Shown: positions 33,927-42,225 of the stretch, piece by piece | How the letters are laid out: every line of letters starts with the position of its first letter | Position numbering within the stretch: the first letter of the stretch is position 1 | Assembly: GCF_900104775.1 (NCBI RefSeq) | Contig: NZ_FNSA01000003.1 | Coordinates: forward strand, 3,596,001 to 3,660,000 | Direction of reading: 5' to 3' | Origin: Tsukamurella tyrosinosolvens | Lineage (GTDB): Bacteria > Actinomycetota > Actinomycetes > Mycobacteriales > Mycobacteriaceae | DNA: 64,000 nt | The notes under the pieces: generated by a model | Told to the model about the DNA's origin: nothing | The model's database searches: none | Seen by the model: the letters and a program-made list of their open reading frames with translations, nothing else | Program-made: the position numbers and the translations under genes

Positions 33927-34973
33927 ATGAGCGAGTACACCGTTGGGTTGTTGTACCCCCGACGTGGCCCCGCGGGGCTGTTCGGCCCGTCGTGCCTCAG
34001 TTGCACGACGCTGGCGGCCGACGACATCAACACCCGGGGCGGGATCCTCGGGCGCGAGTTGGCCGTGCGCCCCATCGACTCCGCGACCGGCGTGGCGAAC
34101 GTGACCCGCGAGGTGGAATCCCTGCTGGCGGCGGGCGAGATCGACGCCATCGTCGGCTGGCACACCTCCGACGTGCGACGGGCGCTGTCCGCGCGCCTCG
34201 ACCTGCGGGTGCCCTACGTGTACACCGCGCTCTACGAGGGCGGCGAGTCGACGGCCGGCGTCTTCCTCACGGGCGAGACGCCCGAAGAACAGATCCTCCC
34301 CGCCCTCGAATGGCTCCGCCGGGAACGCGGCCTGCGCCGGTGGTGGATCGTCGGCAGCGACTACCTCTGGGCCCGCGACAGCGCGAAGGCCTGCGTCCGC
34401 TTCGCGCGCCGCCTCGGGGACGACCTCGTGGGCGCGCGCTTCGTCCCCGTCGGCACCGAGGACTTCTCGGCCGTGATCACCGACATCGCGCGCTCCGACG
34501 CCGACGGAGTGCTCATGCTCCTCCTCGGGCAGGACGCCGTCGAGTTCAACCGGGCCTTCGCCGCGGCGGGCCTCGACGGTGCCTTCGTCCGGTACTCGCC
34601 GCTCATGGACGAGCACATGCTCATGGCCTCGGGCCCGGACGCCACGCGCGACCTGTTCGCCTCGGCGGGCTACTTCGACTCCGTCGTGACGTCCGAGTCG
34701 ATGGAGTTCGGCGCCCGCTACTTCGGCCGGTTCGGTCCCGACGCCTGCACGCCGACATCCATGGGCGAGTCCTGTTTCGAGGGCATGCTCCTCCTCGAGT
34801 CACTGCTGTCGACGGTGCGCAGCACGGACGTCCGGGACATCATGGCCGGGGTGGGCGGCGTGCACTACGAAGGGGCCCGGGGCAACATGGCGCTCCGCGA
34901 CGGCCACGCGCATCAGCGGATGTACCTGGCGCGCGCGGAGGGCTGCGACTTCGACGTGATCAGCCAGCTCTGA
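33927..34973 (+). CDS. amiC: AmiC-like amide sensor (periplasmic-binding-protein fold, cytoplasmic)
   Basis: 348 aa, type-1 PBP fold as in AmiC and urea/branched-chain amino acid receptors: VGLLYPRRGPAGLFGPSCLSCTTLAADDINTRGGILGREL at the N-terminus. No signal peptide or lipobox, so it is a cytosolic sensor, not a transporter subunit. In Pseudomonas AmiC holds the antiterminator AmiR; no AmiR is present here, and the divergent MarR gene is the likely partner in control. TAGGCT at 33873-33878 is a possible -10. Its end overlaps the convergent DUF2235 gene by 14 nt. Confidence 0.88.
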   Translation: MSEYTVGLLYPRRGPAGLFGPSCLSCTTLAADDINTRGGILGRELAVRPIDSATGVANVTREVESLLAAGEIDAIVGWHTSDVRRALSARLDLRVPYVYTALYEGGESTAGVFLTGETPEEQILPALEWLRRERGLRRWWIVGSDYLWARDSAKACVRFARRLGDDLVGARFVPVGTEDFSAVITDIARSDADGVLMLLLGQDAVEFNRAFAAAGLDGAFVRYSPLMDEHMLMASGPDATRDLFASAGYFDSVVTSESMEFGARYFGRFGPDACTPTSMGESCFEGMLLLESLLSTVRSTDVRDIMAGVGGVHYEGARGNMALRDGHAHQRMYLARAEGCDFDVISQL

Positions 34974-36252
34974 GCGTCCCACTCGCGCGCGGCGCGCTGA
35001 GGGCCGCGAAGGTGGGGACGTCGGTGTACAGGTTGTCCAGGGTGTGTGCGTCGGCTGGCCCGGTCGAGCCGTCGGGCTTCAGGCTGAGGGTGCCGCGCAC
35101 CTCGGCCACCCAGGTCGCCGTGTTCGGGTTGATCCCGCGCTGGGCGGCACTGCGTTCGAGGTGGACGTCGTAGGCGCGGCCGTGCGGATCGTTCACGCTC
35201 GGGGCGGTCGGCGCCATCGTGCGCCACCCGCCGGCAAAGACCGGCACGACGCCGGGCCCGGGTCGGCGCCACAGGTCGCGGATCCTTGCGGCGACGTTGG
35301 CGATCCGGTACCCGAACCCCAGCGAATCGTTCTCGACGGGCCCCGTGGAACACAGGCCCGGACCGAGCATGGACCAGTCGAAGCGCAGCCCCGGGTAGTC
35401 GTCGTAGTCCTCCGGCCGGACGTCGAGCTCGGGCCGCACGGACTCCCGCAGGCGCCCCCGCTGCGAAACCTCGCCGACCATCCAGAGCAGGGATCGGTCC
35501 GAGTAGTAGGAGTTCTCGTAGCCGCCGCCGACGTCGAGGTGGACCCCGTCGAACCACACCTGGCGGATGTCCCGGTGCGCCCCGCCCCACAGGCAGGGCG
35601 CGAAGGGCCTGCGGCGCTCGCCGAGCGCGAGGGCCTGTCGGGCGCGGTTCACCTTCGGGCTGAGCTCGACGTCGTGGAACCGGTACTTCTCGCGGGCGAT
35701 GCCGGGGAGGCCCAGGGCGCCGACGGTGTCGAAGACGCCCAGGTTGTCGATGGTGACGACGCCCTCGTCATAGCAGTACGGCTGCAGCCTCGCGAGGTCC
35801 GCGTCGTGCTTCGGGTCCTTCTTCGTGCCCGGCGGCCGCGTCCGGTACACCGACATCGCCTCGGGCAGTTTGTCCTGCGCGACGCCGTCGGGGGTCAGCA
35901 GCCCGACGTGCGAGATCATCCCGATGAGGCTGCGGGCCGTGTAGGCGCCGCGGCTGAAGCCGAACACCGAGATCCGGTCGCCGGGCTCGTAGTTGAGCGC
36001 GAGGAAGCAGTAGCAGTCCAGGATGTTCGCGTCGAGCCCGAACCCGAAGGCACCGGCGAGGACGCGCTCGATCCGGCTGCCGGCGGACCCCACGCCGCGC
36101 TGGTAGTAGACGATCTGGGGCTCGCCGTCGTGCCCGACGGGGGCCACGCCGCGGGCGATCTTCTCGACGTTCGAGACGTGCTTGTTGTCGGGCTTCTGCC
36201 ACGTGCCGTCGCAGCAGATCACCAGGGTCTTCGGCTTCCGGATGGCGTTCAT
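34960..36252 (-). CDS. DUF2235 alpha/beta-hydrolase (Tle1-like lipase domain)
   Basis: 430 aa. N-terminal KTLVICCDGTWQKPDN (CDGTW at 14-18) and ISVFGFSRGAYTARSLIG (nucleophile Ser100 in GFSRG) define DUF2235, the fold of Tle1 phospholipase effectors of type VI secretion; stand-alone copies are common and mostly uncharacterised. No signal peptide or transmembrane segment. The predicted activity is ester or lipid hydrolysis. Promoter TAGGGT (36264-36259) places the RNA start at the ATG, so leaderless, and a LuxR-type inverted repeat sits just upstream. Shares that element with the lysis operon at 39204. Overlaps amiC by 14 nt at the 3' end. Confidence 0.85.
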   Translation of the reverse strand: MNAIRKPKTLVICCDGTWQKPDNKHVSNVEKIARGVAPVGHDGEPQIVYYQRGVGSAGSRIERVLAGAFGFGLDANILDCYCFLALNYEPGDRISVFGFSRGAYTARSLIGMISHVGLLTPDGVAQDKLPEAMSVYRTRPPGTKKDPKHDADLARLQPYCYDEGVVTIDNLGVFDTVGALGLPGIAREKYRFHDVELSPKVNRARQALALGERRRPFAPCLWGGAHRDIRQVWFDGVHLDVGGGYENSYYSDRSLLWMVGEVSQRGRLRESVRPELDVRPEDYDDYPGLRFDWSMLGPGLCSTGPVENDSLGFGYRIANVAARIRDLWRRPGPGVVPVFAGGWRTMAPTAPSVNDPHGRAYDVHLERSAAQRGINPNTATWVAEVRGTLSLKPDGSTGPADAHTLDNLYTDVPTFAALSAPRASGTLRAG

Positions 36253-36258
36253 GGTCCG

Positions 36259-36304
36259 ACCCTAGGAAGCGGGCGGACACCGGTCACGAGTAGCGGGCTA
36301 CTCG
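36259..36304 (-). promoter_or_regulatory. DUF2235 promoter with LuxR-type box (site 1)
   Basis: Inverted repeat CGAGTAGCGGGCTACTCG at 36287-36304, overlapping the LuxR gene's stop codon. On the minus strand GTGACC (36287-36282), 17-nt spacer, TAGGGT (36264-36259). The repeat's centre is 31.5 bp from the -10's first base, the same as at site 2. Its position just upstream of the -35 is the classical place for a LuxR-family activator. It could also form an 8-bp hairpin ending the LuxR gene, which I consider secondary. Confidence 0.6.
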
Positions 36305-38922
36305 ATTCGGGCCGCATCACGGTGCCCCCGGGCGAGCGCGGACGCGAGGCCCGCGCGATCGGTCGCGTCCACCTTTGCGCAGGCGCGGTAGATGTGGCCC
36401 TCGACCGTCCGGACCGAGAGGAAGAGCCGGTCGGCGATCTCCTTGTTCGTGAGCCCGGCGGCGATGAGGTTCGCGATCTCCCGCTCCCGGGTGGTGAGCG
36501 GGAGGGGGTGGGCCGACTCCGCGAGCGCAGGTGTCCGCAGGCCGCCGCACGCCGCGGCCAGACGGTCGGCGGTGGCCGCCGAGTTGTGCATGGCGCTCCG
36601 GCGGTCCGCCTGGGCGTGGACGCTCGCCGCGGCGGCCGCCGCATCCGCCGCCGAGGGCAGCGCGCCGATCCGCTCGAACTCCGCCGCGCACGCGTCGAGA
36701 GCCGCGCCGTCCCGGGCGGCCAGTGCGCGGGCGTGGCGGGCGTACACCGGCACGAGCACGCCGTCCAGCCGGAGCGCGAGCGCGTCCAGACGGTCCGCGA
36801 TCGCGGGATCGGCGTCACCGAGCCGCGCGGCGGTGTGGAGCGCCTCCGCCTCGATCGCGTTCTGTCCGCTCGCCGACGCCGCATCCGCCGTGCCGCGCGC
36901 GGTCGCGATCGCCGCGGACGTCGTGCCCGCGGCCGCCTCCTGCCATGCCTGCGCGAGCATCATCTGGTGGCCGAAGACCGCGACGTTGTCACCGAAGTGA
37001 CGACGCGCGTCCAGCATCGCCGCGGCCGCCGCGGCCGCGTCGCCGAGGGCGGCGTACGCCTGCGCCAGCTGGAATCGCGCGGGGAAGACCCAGGAGACGT
37101 CGGGGCGGTCTCGCACCGTCGCGAGGGTCTGCTCCGCCTGCTGGACCACCCGCGCGTAGCGGCCCTCCGCGAGGTCGACGGCGCTGACGTGGATGCCGGA
37201 GAGTGCCCACGCGAGGAACTGTCCCGCCGATCGGAACTCGACGTAGCGCTGGGCCGCGGCTCGCGCGCGATCGAACGCGCCGGTCAGCGTCAGCGCGAGG
37301 ATCTCGCCGTACCCCGCGGGGAAGCGCAGCACGCCGTCGGTGTGCGGCTCCGCCTCGCGACCGCGCGCCGCGAGCGCCGCCACCTCGTCTCCCCGGCCGG
37401 ACAGCGCCCGCGCGAAACCGCCCGCGAAGACGGCCCATTCGACGGCCCAGGGGGTCGCGACGGGTGATTCGATCACCGCGTCCGCGAGCGCCAACGCCCG
37501 CGGCAGGTCGTCCGTGAAGGCGGCGCAGGCCGCCCCGATGCCCCCGACGATGAGCGCGAGAACGGGGGTGTCGACGCGCGCGGTCAGCAGCGCGAGCACC
37601 TCGTTCGCAGCGACGACGTCGCCGACGGCCCAGAACAGGTTCCCGATCCGCTGCGCGCCCCAGAGCACGAGCTCGACCTCGTCGAGATCCTCGGGGTCGA
37701 AGGAGCGCAGCACGCGATCGGACTCCGCGGCCTCGCCCTGCCACATGAGCGCCCGCGCCAGCAGGCACGCGGCCGGCAGGCCCGCTCCGCCGTCCAGCGC
37801 GGCGCGGGCGAAGCGCTCCCCCATGGGGACGTTCGCGAGCATGAGGGCGTCGCGCGCGGCCTCGCACAGGAGACCCGGGTCCAGGTCGGCGTCGCTGTCG
37901 AGGGCGAGCCCGGCCAGCCGGATCCGGTCCGACGCCGAGGCGACCTCCCGCCGGCCCAGCGCCTCGACGAGGTGCCCGCGCAGCCGCCGGGAGGAGGCGA
38001 ATCCCAGTCGGCCCCGGATCACCTCGCCGAAGAGCGGGTGCGCGTAGCGGACGGAGAGGGCCCGGCCCTCGCGGGCGATGCGGATCAGTCCCTCGGACTC
38101 CGCCTTCTCCACCGCATCGTCGCCGCCGAGGTCGGCCAGCACGTCGAGGTCGATCGGTTCGCACAGCGTCAGCAGCTTGAGCACGTGCAGGACGGCGTCG
38201 TCGAGATGGTCGACGCGCCCGTCGAGGAGGGACGCCAGCTCCGAGGTCACGGCGGCGCGGCCGCGCATCTGCCAGACGCCGCCGACCTCGCGCAGCGCCC
38301 CTGACTCGAGTGCGCCCTGCACGAGGTGCTTGAGGTAGAGCGCGTTCCCACCGGACGCCTCCCACATCAAGCGGGCGGACAGGCCCTCGAGCCGTCCCCC
38401 GACCGCCGCCTCGACCAGCTCGACGCTCTGCTCCAGCGTGAAGGGCTCCAAGGCGATCCGGACGACGTGCCCGTCCTTCCACAGATTCGTGATGGCGTCG
38501 GGTACCGCTTCGCCGCTGCGCACCGTCGCGATGAGGTGGACGGCCCGGTCGATCGCGAGTTGGTGCAGCAGCGTGGCGGACAGCTCGTCGAGCAGGTGCG
38601 CGTCGTCGACGCCGACGACCAGATGCCCGTCCGCCAGGAGGGATTCCCGCGCCGCCGACAGGTACGTGACCGGATCGGTCGACGTGGCCGGGCCGACGAG
38701 ATGCGCGAACACCCCGAGCGGTATCCCGCGCGCGGATTCCGTTCCCGCGACCCACTGCACGTGCAGGTTCGAGTCCGCCGCGACGGACCGCGCGAGCGTC
38801 GTCTTGCCGACGCCGGCATCGCCCGTCACGATCACGCCGCAACCGGCGGACGCCGTGTCGAGCGCAGCGCGGACGTCGTCGTACTCGCGGCCCCGCTCGA
38901 CGATCCGCAACTGCTGTCGCAT
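36298..38922 (-). CDS. large ATP-binding LuxR-family regulator (LAL/MalT-like)
   Basis: 874 aa from the chosen ATG. Architecture: N-terminal AAA/NACHT-like ATPase (Walker A GDAGVGKT at 34-41; LVVGVDDAHLLDEL as Walker B), a long Ala-rich helical repeat region (about 330-790), and a C-terminal LuxR HTH (LTTREREIANLIAAGLTNKEIADRLFLSVRTVEGHIYRA). Such proteins need ATP and an inducer to activate. An ATG at 38946 adds eight codons but lies upstream of TAGAAT (38936-38931), so 38922 is preferred. It lies between two promoters with matching LuxR-type boxes: the DUF2235 gene and the lysB operon. Inducer unknown. Confidence 0.88.
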   Translation of the reverse strand: MRQQLRIVERGREYDDVRAALDTASAGCGVIVTGDAGVGKTTLARSVAADSNLHVQWVAGTESARGIPLGVFAHLVGPATSTDPVTYLSAARESLLADGHLVVGVDDAHLLDELSATLLHQLAIDRAVHLIATVRSGEAVPDAITNLWKDGHVVRIALEPFTLEQSVELVEAAVGGRLEGLSARLMWEASGGNALYLKHLVQGALESGALREVGGVWQMRGRAAVTSELASLLDGRVDHLDDAVLHVLKLLTLCEPIDLDVLADLGGDDAVEKAESEGLIRIAREGRALSVRYAHPLFGEVIRGRLGFASSRRLRGHLVEALGRREVASASDRIRLAGLALDSDADLDPGLLCEAARDALMLANVPMGERFARAALDGGAGLPAACLLARALMWQGEAAESDRVLRSFDPEDLDEVELVLWGAQRIGNLFWAVGDVVAANEVLALLTARVDTPVLALIVGGIGAACAAFTDDLPRALALADAVIESPVATPWAVEWAVFAGGFARALSGRGDEVAALAARGREAEPHTDGVLRFPAGYGEILALTLTGAFDRARAAAQRYVEFRSAGQFLAWALSGIHVSAVDLAEGRYARVVQQAEQTLATVRDRPDVSWVFPARFQLAQAYAALGDAAAAAAAMLDARRHFGDNVAVFGHQMMLAQAWQEAAAGTTSAAIATARGTADAASASGQNAIEAEALHTAARLGDADPAIADRLDALALRLDGVLVPVYARHARALAARDGAALDACAAEFERIGALPSAADAAAAAASVHAQADRRSAMHNSAATADRLAAACGGLRTPALAESAHPLPLTTREREIANLIAAGLTNKEIADRLFLSVRTVEGHIYRACAKVDATDRAGLASALARGHRDAARIE

Positions 38923-39081
38923 GAACACGTATTCTAGTACCGGCACGGCCCAACGGCGCCGGTCGAATCTCGCGGGTTTTCCTGCCCGACAGCTTGATTC
39001 GGGTACTAATGGTCGAAAATCCGATCTTTGCGATCCGCTGCGGTCGATTCGGCACGGTCGTCCACGGAGTCGGCGAGAAGT

Positions 39082-39127
39082 CGGGTAGTGCGCTACTCGT
39101 GTGCTCGGCGTCGACGCTGCGCAGAAT
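39082..39127 (+). promoter_or_regulatory. lysis-operon promoter with LuxR-type box (site 2)
   Basis: CGGGTAGTGCGCTACTCG at 39082-39099 matches site 1 (36287-36304) at 15 of 18 positions. Downstream, GTGTGC (39099-39104), 17-nt spacer, CAGAAT (39122-39127); the repeat's centre lies 31.5 bp from the -10's first base, exactly as at site 1. Predicted RNA start near 39134, giving a ~70-nt leader to lysB. The remainder of the 281-bp gap (38923-39203) shows only the LuxR gene's own -10. Confidence 0.6.
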
Positions 39128-39203: not shown

Positions 39204-40004
39204 ATGTCCGATTTCGTCTTCTGCGCCCGGGGCACCGGCGAATCCCTCTCGGGGAACATGCTGGACAACGTCTCCCGGCGATTGCACGGCGTCACCGTGG
39301 AACAGGTGATCTACAGCGCCTCGATCAGCCTGGACAACGCCGCCCGCGACCCGCTGGCACCGTCGGGCGACAACAGCGCGACCCAGGTGGTGAACTGGCT
39401 CCGCACCCGGATCGCCGCGCTCCACCCCGGCGACCGCTACATCGTCCTCGGTTACTCGCTCGGCGCCGTCGGCGTGAACCGGTGGCTCAAGACCAGTCCC
39501 GACACCGCGGGCTGCCGGATGGTCGGCACCATCGCCGACCCCAGCCGGCGGGCCGGCGTCTCCTACGGGCTCCCGATCGCGCCGAACCGCTTCGGCATCT
39601 ACGCGACGGGCGGCACGGGCACGGTGCCGAACGACCAGCGATCGCCGGTGCCGCTGTTCGAGATCGCCAGTCCCGGCGACGTGATGACCTCGTGCCCCGC
39701 GGTCTCGCCCCTGCACGCCTTCGCCGGGCCGGTGATGGCCTTCACGCTCACCGACCCGAACGCGCTCATCGCGCAGCTGGTCGCCGGCGGGATCGATGAC
39801 GTGGTGTCCGACCTCGCGAATGCCGGGCACTGGTTCGACCCGGGCTGGTGGTCCTGGCCGGCCGACCTCGCGGGCTTCGCGAACGGGCAGCACACCACGG
39901 CGTACGGCCTGCCGATGTGGCGCGACAGCGCCAATCGGCCGGTCTCGGGGATCGACCTGCTGGCCCGCGTGTGCAGCTGGAAGATGTCGGCGGTGCCGGC
40001 GTGA
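39204..40004 (+). CDS. LysB-like mycolyl-arabinogalactan esterase / PE-PPE-cutinase-fold hydrolase
   Basis: 266 aa, alpha/beta-hydrolase. N-terminal DFVFCARGTGES and nucleophile elbow IVLGYSLGAVGVNRW (Ser85); Asp159 (ASPGD) and His230 (NGQHTTAYG) are candidate triad partners. This is the layout of mycobacteriophage LysB, which cuts mycolic acids from arabinogalactan at the end of infection, and of related cutinase/PE-PPE hydrolases. No signal peptide, as expected if a holin lets it out. AAGGAG ribosome site. The stop overlaps the lysA start by GTGA, making a phage-like lysB-lysA-holin operon. A host cutinase-like esterase is the alternative, less likely given the neighbours. Confidence 0.78.
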   Translation: MSDFVFCARGTGESLSGNMLDNVSRRLHGVTVEQVIYSASISLDNAARDPLAPSGDNSATQVVNWLRTRIAALHPGDRYIVLGYSLGAVGVNRWLKTSPDTAGCRMVGTIADPSRRAGVSYGLPIAPNRFGIYATGGTGTVPNDQRSPVPLFEIASPGDVMTSCPAVSPLHAFAGPVMAFTLTDPNALIAQLVAGGIDDVVSDLANAGHWFDPGWWSWPADLAGFANGQHTTAYGLPMWRDSANRPVSGIDLLARVCSWKMSAVPA

Positions 40005-41611
40005 GCGCGTACACCCGCGATGCGGTCGCGGCGGCGTTCATCGCGGAGGGGCGCCGGTCCGGCGTCTCCGAGCGCGGGATCGTCATCTGCCTGGCCACCG
40101 GCCTCGTCGAATCGAATCTCACCGTCTACGCCAATCTCGCGGACCCCGACTCGCTCCAGGAACCCCACGACGCCGTCGGCTCGGACGCCAACAGCGTCGG
40201 GCCGCTCCAGCAGCGGGCGCCGTGGTGGGGCTCGAGTGCGCGCGAGCGCATGGATCCCGTGCTGAGCTCACGCCTGTTCTACGCCGCCCTGAAGGCGCTG
40301 GACTACGACTCGCCCGCCCATACCGCCGGCTGGTACGCCCAGCAGGTCCAGCGCTCCGCCTTCCCCGATCGCTACGACGAGCGGATGGCGCAGGCGCAGG
40401 ACATCTACGACCGCCTCACCGCGGCCGGCCCTTCCCCCTCCCCCGACGTCGCGAACGGAGCCGCCATGTCCCCCGCACCCGCCTACACCGAGATCGACCG
40501 GATGGGCGACTCGCGTTCGTCGCGCAACGGCGCCGTGATCCGGAACTTCCTCCTGCACACCGAGGAGGGGAACAGCACGGCCGAGCGGCTCGCCGCCTAC
40601 TGCAACGATTCGGCGCACGGCGCCAGCTACCACTACACGGTGCGCGACGGCGTCGTCTGCGACGTCGTGGACACCGACTTCGCCTCGTGGAGCGTTCTCA
40701 GCGCGAACCCGTACACCATCAACCTGTGCTTCGCGGGCAGTCACGCCGGCTGGTCGCGCGCGGACTGGCTCGAGCGCCGCGACGACCTCACGATCGCGGC
40801 GTGGCTCGCGGTGGCGGACGCCCGCAAGTACGGCTTCGCCACGACCGTCATCGCGCCGCCGTACCGCGTCACCGACGGCATCAGCGACCACCGGTACGTG
40901 ACGCGGGCGCTCGGCATCGGGTCGCACACCGACGTGGGCGACGGCTTCCCCTGGGACGTCTTCGCCGCGGACGTCGCCGCGTTCACCAGTGCGGGCGCTC
41001 CCGCGGTCGTCGGGCAGCCCGACGGGGCCGCTGCCGCGCCGCCCGCCTCCCCGCCGGTCGACACCGCGGCGCGGGCGGAGGCGGCGATCACCGCGGCGGC
41101 CGCGCGGGCCGCCGACTGGATCGGGCGGCGGAAGGACCTCGTCGCGGTCGCCTGCCCCGACGGACGGGGGTGGTTCGCCGCCTTCCAGGGCGGCACCGTC
41201 TACTGGACCGCCCTCACCGGCGCGCACACGGTGCCCGCCAGGCTCCTCGAGTCCTACACCGGCTACCAGCGGGAGAACGGCCCGCTCGGCTACCCGGTGG
41301 TCGACCACACGGAGCTGCCGGACGGACAGGTCGAGGCGTTCGAGCGCGGCGTGCTGTACCGGCGCCGGGACGCCGCGCAGGGCTTCTTCGTCACGGGGAC
41401 GATCGGCGCGCGGTGGGCGCGGGACGGCTACGAGAAGGGCCCGCTGGGGTGGCCGATCTCGTCCGAGATGAAGCTGTCCGACGGCGGGGTGCGGCAGGAC
41501 TTCGAGCACGGGCGGCTGTACTGGTCGCCCGATGGGACCACGGTGGTCGGCACGACCGCCGCCGAGACGGCCGGCGCGGTGGGTGCCGCCGGTGCCGCAC
41601 CGGCGGCCTGA
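40001..41611 (+). CDS. LysA-like endolysin: lytic-transglycosylase-like + amidase + LGFP repeats
   Basis: 536 aa, three modules. Residues 1-135: lysozyme/transglycosylase-like domain as in actinophage LysA (Glu37 in ATGLVESNL; DANSVGPLQQR). Residues ~165-325: N-acetylmuramoyl-L-alanine amidase (amidase_2) with expected zinc ligands His186 (FLLHTEEG), His309 and Asp319 (SHTDVGDGFPWD). Residues ~385-510: two or three LGFP-type repeats (NGPLGYPVVDHTEL, KGPLGWPISSEMKL), which anchor proteins to the mycolate-containing wall. No signal peptide. GTG start overlaps lysB. The C-terminal tail is Ala/Gly-rich. Confidence 0.88.
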   Translation: MSAYTRDAVAAAFIAEGRRSGVSERGIVICLATGLVESNLTVYANLADPDSLQEPHDAVGSDANSVGPLQQRAPWWGSSARERMDPVLSSRLFYAALKALDYDSPAHTAGWYAQQVQRSAFPDRYDERMAQAQDIYDRLTAAGPSPSPDVANGAAMSPAPAYTEIDRMGDSRSSRNGAVIRNFLLHTEEGNSTAERLAAYCNDSAHGASYHYTVRDGVVCDVVDTDFASWSVLSANPYTINLCFAGSHAGWSRADWLERRDDLTIAAWLAVADARKYGFATTVIAPPYRVTDGISDHRYVTRALGIGSHTDVGDGFPWDVFAADVAAFTSAGAPAVVGQPDGAAAAPPASPPVDTAARAEAAITAAAARAADWIGRRKDLVAVACPDGRGWFAAFQGGTVYWTALTGAHTVPARLLESYTGYQRENGPLGYPVVDHTELPDGQVEAFERGVLYRRRDAAQGFFVTGTIGARWARDGYEKGPLGWPISSEMKLSDGGVRQDFEHGRLYWSPDGTTVVGTTAAETAGAVGAAGAAPAA

Positions 41612-41631: not shown

Positions 41632-42030
41632 ATGGAGGACATCAGGAGCAGGATCTTCCCGCGGAAGATCCCCGAATCGGTCCGGCGGGCGCTGTACGCC
41701 ACGGCCGGCCCGCTCGTCACGCTGCTGGCCGCGGGCGGCCTCATCCCCGGGAACCAGGCCGCCGCCTGGACATCCCTGGTGATTGCCGCGGTCACGCTGC
41801 TCATCGCGGTGGTCAACTGCGAGTCCCGCTGGCGCAACGCCGTCTACCTGACCACCGCGGCCCTCCAGGCGGTGCTGCAGGGCTACGGCATCGGCACCGA
41901 CGCGACGTGGGCGGCGATCAGCGGCATCGTCGTGTCCCTGTTGGGGATCGGGCTGGCCGCGGCCTTCACGCCGTCGGGCCTGGCCGAGGAGAACCGCGCC
42001 GCACCGCCGCGCGCGGTGCCGGTGGGATAG
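41632..42030 (+). CDS. holin-like small membrane protein
   Basis: 132 aa. Short charged N-terminus (MEDIRSRIFPRKIPESVRR), four hydrophobic segments (about 20-38, 43-62, 69-87, 93-111) and a polar C-terminal tail. Size, topology and position directly after lysA are those of actinophage holins, which form membrane holes for endolysin release. Ribosome site AGAGGTGGAG. Last gene of the cassette, followed by a terminator. Holin families share little sequence, so the call depends on context. Confidence 0.72.
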   Translation: MEDIRSRIFPRKIPESVRRALYATAGPLVTLLAAGGLIPGNQAAAWTSLVIAAVTLLIAVVNCESRWRNAVYLTTAALQAVLQGYGIGTDATWAAISGIVVSLLGIGLAAAFTPSGLAEENRAAPPRAVPVG

Positions 42031-42047
42031 TCCTGGGGAGGAACGAC

Positions 42048-42077
42048 GAAGGCCCGGATCGCATGATCCGGGCCTTC
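42048..42077. terminator. terminator after the lysis cassette, facing tRNA-Glu
   Basis: A perfect 13-bp stem (42048-42060 with 42065-42077), 4-nt GCAT loop, between the holin stop and the 3' end of tRNA-Glu on the other strand. Can stop both. Confidence 0.85.
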
Positions 42078-42082
42078 CGTTG

Positions 42083-42155
42083 TACCCCCGATGGGATTCG
42101 AACCCACGCTACCGCCGTGAGAGGGCGGCGTCCTAGGCCGCTAGACGACGGGGGC
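42083..42155 (-). tRNA. tRNA-Glu (CTC), copy 1
   Basis: 73 nt, full cloverleaf: acceptor GCCCCCG pairing with CGGGGGT (G-U at the end), D-arm GTCT/GGAC, anticodon stem CCGCC/GGCGG with loop CTCTCAC (anticodon CTC), T-loop GTTCGAATC. CCA not encoded. Identical to copy 2 at 42226. Its 3' end faces the phage-like lysis cassette. Confidence 0.96.
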
Positions 42156-42225
42156 TAGAACTGCTGCCGAGCGCGCACGAGGCGCCTCGACGATGTCGAT
42201 GAAGGTAGCACACCTGCACCGAACG

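Follow-up and report, generated by a model that had tools for sequence, protein, structure and literature searches.

A shared palindromic box suggests a regulator-coupled lysis-and-release locus in Tsukamurella tyrosinosolvens

Type 10 secretion systems, as outlined in published accounts, use one regulator to couple cargo to a lysis cassette, and some of the cells lyse (PMC10847048, PMC10101115). Large ATP-binding regulators of the LuxR family (LALs) are described as large proteins with an N-terminal ATP-binding (Walker A) domain and a C-terminal LuxR-type helix-turn-helix (HTH) (PMC3282765). Here we report a five-gene block in a 64,000-nucleotide stretch (the window) of the 5.28-Mb genome of Tsukamurella tyrosinosolvens (contig NZ_FNSA01000003.1, positions 3,596,001 to 3,660,000). 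Its DUF2235 enzyme gene and its phage-type lysis operon each stand behind a copy of an 18-bp palindrome, with a LAL gene between them. These shared boxes, tying the enzyme and the lysis kit to the regulator, suggest a programmed burst-and-release system. The original prediction for this DNA regarded such a system as not described; two precedents exist, namely type 10 secretion systems (PMC10847048, PMC10101115) and the LipR-lipA pair (PMC12134079).

The DUF2235 and regulator genes lie on the minus strand and lysB, lysA and the holin gene follow on the plus strand. A substrate-binding protein gene flanks the block on one side, and two tRNA-Glu genes, then tRNA-Gln and gltX, on the other. In window coordinates, the parts are:

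34960..36252, minus strand: DUF2235 (Tle1-like) alpha-beta hydrolase gene, 430 amino acids; Pfam PF09994 (T6SS_Tle1-like_cat), 4.5e-78
36259..36264, minus strand: -10 element TAGGGT of the DUF2235 promoter, starting 22 nt past box 1
36287..36304, minus strand: box 1, CGAGTAGCCCGCTACTCG, putative operator of the DUF2235 promoter, overlapping the 3' end of the regulator gene
36298..38922, minus strand: LAL regulator gene, 874 amino acids, N-terminal AAA ATPase and C-terminal LuxR-type HTH; PF00196, PF13191, PF13401
38931..38936, minus strand: putative -10 element TAGAAT of the regulator's own promoter, identical in the four-species alignment
39082..39099, plus strand: box 2, CGGGTAGTGCGCTACTCG, a conserved palindrome and putative operator of the lysB promoter
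39122..39127, plus strand: -10 element CAGAAT of the lysis operon; each of the four species has xAxxxT here, 22 nt from the box
39204..40004, plus strand: lysB, LysB-type esterase, 266 amino acids, with GYSLG; PHROG 102 'endolysin', 1e-31
40001..41611, plus strand: lysA endolysin, 536 amino acids, its start overlapping the lysB stop; PF01510, PF08310; PHROG 2998, 2.2e-110
41632..42030, plus strand: holin, 132 amino acids, three transmembrane-like segments by hydropathy; PF23809 (Phage_holin_9), 1.6e-29; PHROG 565, 1.2e-28
42049..42076, no strand assigned: terminator-like inverted repeat between the holin gene and tRNA-Glu, read from the sequence

The letters and positions first given for the two repeats were correct. 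The repeats share 15 of 18 bases, a figure that does not change if box 1 is turned to run with its gene. As had been claimed, both promoters place the repeat's centre 31.5 bp from the base at which the -10 begins, the order being box, 22 nt and then TAGGGT or CAGAAT. A -35 hexamer abutting the box had been proposed as well; at a spacer of 17 nt this hexamer takes in the final base of the box, and that of lysB (GTGTGC) is poor. Class-II LuxR-type activators bind at sites centred about 43 bp ahead of the start. Box 1 overlaps the final codon and stop of the regulator gene, whose TAG lies inside GAGTAG. It is no mere coding constraint, since in L033 the regulator stop precedes the box and the box is still kept.

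The genome holds the exact core GAGTAGN4CTACTC twice, once as box 1, and its reversed control not at all; CGRGTAGN4CTACTCG-N22-xAxxxT has two perfect matches, both at this locus, flanking the LAL gene. When three mismatches are allowed the pattern comes near background (29 matches versus 21 for the reversed control), and weak sites elsewhere therefore mean little. Before the regulator's putative own -10 (38931..38936), no LAL box stands at the matching place. Read towards the regulator, box 2 has GACCGT at 22 nt in the window, which fits xAxxxT. Autoregulation through box 2 is nevertheless unsupported because the aligned hexamer in L031, GGCGGT, does not fit.

A search with the LAL protein gave matches in 7 of 16 Tsukamurella genomes. 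In the best four (100, 95, 85 and 80% identity) all five genes lie next to gltX with their order unchanged, and in three of these genomes the binding-protein gene borders the opposite side. The original prediction had staked itself on conservation between strains, and both boxes are indeed kept in all four block-bearing species: box 1 reads CGAGTAGCCCGCTACTCG, CGAGTAGCCCACTACTCG, CGAGTAGCGCGGTACTCG and CGGGTAGTGCGCTACTCG, and box 2 reads CGGGTAGTGCGCTACTCG, CAGGTAGTGCGCTACTCG, CGGGTAGCGCGCTACTCG and CGGGTAGCCGGCTACTCG. Each of the eight promoters has xAxxxT exactly 22 nt past the box and TG as the two bases directly after it. The DUF2235 -10 is TAGGGT, TACGGT, TACGGT and TAGCGT in the four species, and the start codon follows 6 nt after it in every case; the predicted transcript is therefore probably leaderless or nearly so. 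Within the gap between regulator and lysB, 14 of the 18 columns of box 2 are invariant versus 85 of 240 other gap-free columns.

Six further Tsukamurella genomes (G001, G002, G005, G007, G013 and G014) have a gap of 50 to 761 bp between tRNA-Glu and the binding-protein gene, with no block genes in it; the terminator-like repeat is matched in block-less gaps of relatives too. In G003 the block is gone and a 204-bp piece of the DUF2235 gene (89% identity) lies beside the tRNA-Glu terminator-like repeat, a probable deletion scar at L229:1961-2226. Four genomes (G004, G010, G011 and G015) hold no block genes in the 12 kb beside gltX, the gap being longer or the binding-protein gene not found, and G012 gave no gltX match. 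The block is an accessory locus, and it seems to have been lost at least once.

The regulator had been called an ATPase with a LuxR HTH, and it is indeed an 874-amino-acid ATPase with a LuxR-type HTH. It is more precisely of LAL type: it is large, has the Walker A motif GDAGVGKT, matches PF13191 and PF13401 and carries PF00196 (GerE) at its C-terminus. Quorum sensing of the LuxR kind was rejected because Pfam finds AAA domains and no autoinducer-binding domain. The NCBIfam AbsR2 model scores 231 bits on the protein, under its cut-off of 850.

The box follows this regulator. In the 16 Tsukamurella genomes, GTAGN4CTACTCG-N22-xAxxxT has 10 sites and the reversed control none (0/16). All five genomes whose LAL reaches 48% identity or more have boxes with a -10, and the 11 others have none (one-sided Fisher 0.0002). 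Among these five, G011 lacks a lysB match and matches lysA only through the LGFP repeats; its LAL gene follows an animal-haem-peroxidase gene with a one-mismatch box. G013 encodes a 36%-identical LAL with two one-mismatch boxes around the gene, both with xAxxxT at 22 nt and with small secreted-looking proteins behind them. Two further Tsukamurella sites, G008:C1 and G011:C3, have no clear gene behind.

Our results also show that the box reaches well beyond the genus. Among 401 family genomes, drawn evenly from a larger group, the strict box with xAxxxT at 22 nt occurs in 72 (reversed control 0), and the strict palindrome alone occurs 144 times in 80 genomes versus 12 for the reversed pattern. 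Random genome-wide occurrence, which the original prediction had named as a refutation, is thus not what was found; counts exceed the reversed controls in the own genome and in the family. The spacing was assessed on 28 sites picked regardless of the -10, these being the centred ones of 30 palindrome loci; left out were L089, already taken from the box-plus--10 scan, and L121, near a contig end. At offset 22, xAxxxT stands on 26 of the 56 sides, versus at most four at any other offset from 8 to 59, and TAxxxT stands on 16 of 56 versus none at offsets 12-21 and 23-32. In 25 of the 28 sites xAxxxT lies at 22 nt on one side or both; the binomial tail of 2e-26, computed from base composition, assumes independent sites, which these, from genomes early in the palindrome list, are not. 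Chance palindromes were rejected on the own-genome core counts, the family counts against reversed controls and the fixed 22-nt hexamer.

We also looked at 56 box regions of other genera, which came from 30 of the 76 non-Tsukamurella genomes carrying a box (Tsukamurella L172-L175 not counted), and at 20 control regions placed at round coordinates in 13 box-bearing genomes. LAL-like genes scoring over 400 bits were found in 9 of the 56 box regions (651 kb) versus 0 of the 20 controls (400 kb; Poisson 0.005), one of the nine (L166) having no HTH match; the LAL profile for these scans had row L032 shortened to 717 amino acids. The HTH stretch SVRTVEGH is common to the aligned LALs that reach the HTH and therefore fits a common box, yet other LALs could read it too. 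The box is thus a putative operator used throughout the family and followed by genes of many kinds, and is therefore not private to the DUF2235-lysis block. The shared regulation first proposed is partly supported, in that the boxes are conserved, fixed in their spacing, present over both genes in four species and tracking the regulator.

The lysis genes are intact, under purifying selection and not in a prophage. Between the window and three relatives, dN/dS is 0.14-0.27 for lysB, 0.15-0.25 for lysA and 0.10-0.41 for the holin gene, versus 0.12-0.38 for DUF2235, 0.08-0.19 for the LAL gene and 0.11-0.14 for gltX. The operon had been called phage-like, and PHROG and phage similarity bear this out for LysA, LysB and the holin. 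LysA is 52.5% identical over 92% to LysA of Tsukamurella phage TPA2, with Amidase_2 in the middle and LGFP repeats at the C-terminus, and its residues 5-135 match the solved chains 8b2e ('Muramidase') and 8b2h ('SH3b domain-containing protein'). The holin is about 39% identical to its TPA2 match. The PHROG 102 'endolysin' protein, which in our own reading is probably LysB, shares about 51% of its residues with proteins from Tsukamurella phages TPA2 and TIN2-4, conserves the GYSLG motif and has no Pfam match and no PDB match by sequence. Relatives of it outside the block, at 34-61%, were found in G005, G008 (a second copy), G012 and G014 when LysB was sought in 9 of the 16 Tsukamurella genomes. 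A prophage was rejected: there are only five genes, the host-gene flanks are shared with relatives and the block holds no virion genes. An attachment-site check found no shared 12-mer between 34851-35100 and 41991-42170. As a separate observation, the LGFP repeats of LysA match the solved 'Protein PS1', a corynebacterial wall protein, giving a host-type wall anchor in a phage-type endolysin.

DUF2235 is described as a lipid-acting toxin domain of polymorphic toxins (PMC3482391). The motifs GFSRGAYTARS, GV[FW]DTVG and GVHxDxGGG, characteristic of Tle1-like enzymes, are kept in six of six aligned homologues. By hydropathy, with no signal-peptide predictor run, the DUF2235 enzyme, LysB and LysA lack a transmembrane-like segment and would therefore need the holin or lysis to leave the cell.

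Based on these observations, we consider it somewhat probable that the block is a host-kept lysis-and-release locus under the LAL regulator, working like a type 10 secretion system. We infer binding by the LAL, activation, lysis, release and the targets of the enzymes as follows. The LAL would sense a signal, bind the 18-bp palindrome CGRGTAGN4CTACTCG about 43 bp before the start site and, as an ATP-dependent class-II activator, recruit RNA polymerase at two promoters. One would yield a cytosolic DUF2235 (Tle1-like) phospholipase, and the other LysB as a mycolate-layer esterase, LysA as a peptidoglycan hydrolase, and the holin. The holin would give the lysins access to the wall and the cell would burst, with LysB serving the mycolate layer as spanins serve the outer membrane. 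The signal-less DUF2235 enzyme would then escape and act on other cells.

The genes behind the box elsewhere bear on how wide such a regulon might be. They come from a crude GC3 script, which may have misassigned or overlooked first genes; 6 of 44 box sides in one set and 3 of 16 in another were left without a gene. DUF2235 genes stand behind the box in 3 of the 56 regions (L163, L165 and L253, in three other genera) versus 0 of 20 controls. In L165 the gene follows a one-mismatch box and precedes a peroxidase gene, and in L253 it is the second gene, seen by tblastn only. The first gene of L177 encodes a LysB-type protein (PHROG 102, 5.6e-36; 30% over 113 amino acids to the window LysB). Peroxidase genes lie behind the box in L142, L144 and L165, patatin genes in L153 and L154, each followed by a LAL gene, and non-specific nuclease genes in L255 and L259 of one genus. 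Very large WD40 proteins are encoded by first genes at L166:6130-8997 and L261:1573-5937; one has a TIR-like start (a PADLOC match) and one a STAND domain, so that here one ATPase regulator may switch on other STAND/TIR-type proteins. The toxin theme is suggestive, not exclusive. It leaves room for a tentative and rather doubtful extension, a lytic secretion system of mycolic-acid bacteria that acts at the level of the population, in which a few cells would burst by means of a tamed LysB-LysA-holin kit and release a lipid-attacking, toxin-like enzyme. The block would then represent a single arm of a LAL-box regulon spanning the family, whose toxin-like effectors would be DUF2235, patatin, LysB, peroxidase, nuclease, TIR-like and STAND-WD40 proteins.

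Several results weigh against a burst-and-release role. The original prediction asked whether the block is conserved across Tsukamurella; it is present in 4 of 16 genomes, not genus-wide, and is therefore dispensable. LysB was identified through PHROG and its similarity to phage proteins, the -10 of lysB is weak throughout (CAGAAT, CAGACT, GAGACT and CACACT in the four species), and box 1 differs less from its surroundings than box 2 does (13 of 18 versus 19 of 39 columns). No lysA or holin relative occurs in the 56 other box regions. Twelve of 30 scanned first genes behind the box have no Pfam family, and the rest are mixed: besides WD40 proteins and small secreted-looking proteins they include P450, MMPL, CotH (twice), a K+ transporter and RapZ, and an AMP-binding enzyme in Tsukamurella G011 is likewise off the toxin theme. 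With such a mixture, DUF2235 and lysis may be two of many outputs and no pair of cargo and carrier. Finally, ten LAL relatives at 57-65% (nine Gordonia, one Antrihabitans; L034-L043) have a strict box within 10 kb only at Antrihabitans L040, which counts against a simple rule of one LAL, one box.

Other explanations were considered alongside lysis and release. The block might be a suicide device, its ATPase regulator sensing phage or envelope attack and killing the cell with LysB, LysA, holin and phospholipase, so that cargo release is not the point. The patatin, TIR-like/WD40, STAND-WD40 and nuclease genes behind the box resemble defence effectors, and the lack of transmembrane-like segments in the enzymes, the patchy presence and the deletion scar agree with this. 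PADLOC, however, has no match for DUF2235, lysB, lysA or the holin and only weak ones for the regulator HTH and ATPase, the surroundings not having been searched for defence genes, and we judge this explanation unlikely. A catabolic or scavenging regulon appears to us just as doubtful; here the LAL would activate hydrolases that attack other cells' lipids or walls, and the phage lysins would have been taken up as further wall-degrading enzymes and not as a means of self-lysis. It has a precedent in Streptomyces LipR (PMC12134079); patatins and peroxidases lie beside LAL genes, and one other genus has a solitary LysB-type gene behind the box. Enzymes without a transmembrane-like segment speak against it, and the holin encoded in that operon makes little sense unless the membrane is opened.

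The remaining alternatives concern the boxes themselves. If the lysis operon were a prophage relic beside the LAL by accident, with box 2 serving something else, its nearest relatives found would be phage genes, as they are. It is very improbable all the same, since the genes are intact in four species at dN/dS of 0.10-0.41, box 2 and its -10 are conserved and host genes flank the block; in addition, neither the TPA2 stretch read nor four other Tsukamurella lysB loci contain a LAL box. The boxes might instead be real and bound by another LuxR-type or other regulator encoded elsewhere. The common recognition region SVRTVEGH and the nine Gordonia relatives without a nearby strict box would suit that proposal. 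We nevertheless find it improbable because box presence follows this LAL across 16 genomes, LAL genes share a region with the box in 9 of 56 cases versus 0 of 20 controls, and the two perfect own-genome sites flank this LAL gene.

Some observations stand apart from these arguments. A palindrome script run around the L034-L043 genes missed the known boxes of L031-L033, and therefore says nothing on box absence. It reported CTCCCGTTCGCGAACGGCAG in L035 and L037 and CTGCCGTTCGCCAACGGCAG in L042, and a different palindrome, CTNCCGTTCGCNAACGGCAG, lies 240-270 bp before the Gordonia LAL gene in L035, L037 and L042 (3 of 10 such loci). A third likely LAL site of the own genome, at C3:3035373-3035418 (L240:5374-5419; candidate site C3:3035401), has one mismatch and a TAGCGT -10. 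Behind it lie genes for a 957-amino-acid protein without a Pfam or NCBIfam family, a 361-amino-acid protein and a Y-family polymerase-like gene. A perfect GAGTAGTCGACTACTC palindrome at C3:1236185-1236200 (L243) stands 62 nt ahead of a gene for a glycine-rich secreted-looking protein, and its hexamer at 22 nt, TTTGCT, does not fit the xAxxxT rule. Near position 6057 of L161, and at similar sites in other genomes of genus g23, a box with a TAGATT -10 faces the 3' end of a convergent rho gene; a second stretch resembling a palindrome, GAACACCTTTGTTC, lies in its spacer, and gene calling gave nothing behind the box. In two genera (L040:3116-3403 and L168:5723-6022), a small protein starts exactly 6 nt past the -10 of a strict box. 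By look it presumably resembles chorismate mutase, with no Pfam match for the L168 protein.

Returning to the proposed lysis-and-release locus, its closest parallels are as follows. The YenLC/RoeA system of Yersinia entomophaga and ChiWXYZ/ChiR of Serratia likewise have a phage-derived holin and endolysin cassette outside a prophage, and regulator-tied cargo mostly without secretion signals (PMC10847048, PMC10101115). A holin and a peptidoglycan hydrolase outside a prophage are what we find by Pfam, PHROG, the host flanks and the block-less gaps. The host, however, is a mycolic-acid actinobacterium rather than a Gram-negative bacterium, and cargo and lysis are predicted; the regulator is a LAL where the others have PhoB-like RoeA or ChiR. 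None of the five genes encodes a spanin, for which the LysB-type esterase is a possible stand-in. With spanins absent, we would claim likeness in logic only and not membership of type 10. Among the matches listed in the open-licence literature, by titles and abstract starts, no type 10 system of mycolata appeared, a weak negative, and the available text of a review of holin export has no mention of mycobacteri, corynebacter or streptomyces (PMC9527704).

The LipR-lipA pair of Streptomyces also places a LuxR-family activator beside a lipase gene, whereas lysis genes are not mentioned in the part of that account available (PMC12134079). Phage TPA2 has lysB then lysA, overlapping, with proteins about 51-52% identical and the holin family shared, but its holin lies elsewhere in the genome and the stretch read has no LAL box. 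With MalT-type LALs the regulator shares large size, Walker A and a C-terminal LuxR HTH; the fixed palindromic operator at about -43 proposed here is the difference. The LAL literature searched, including PMC3466318 and PMC3282765, shows no such operator as far as those texts go, a weak negative from open-licence papers only; looking for the box sequence together with LuxR brought up two papers, which concern Pseudomonas and Listeria.

The operator proposed here belongs to one subfamily of the LAL regulators, which have been little studied, and its fixed geometry would allow their regulons to be read in genomes throughout the family. A lysis kit kept by the host and including a LysB-type esterase would carry type 10 secretion over to mycolate-layer bacteria, in which the release of signal-less enzymes becomes testable.

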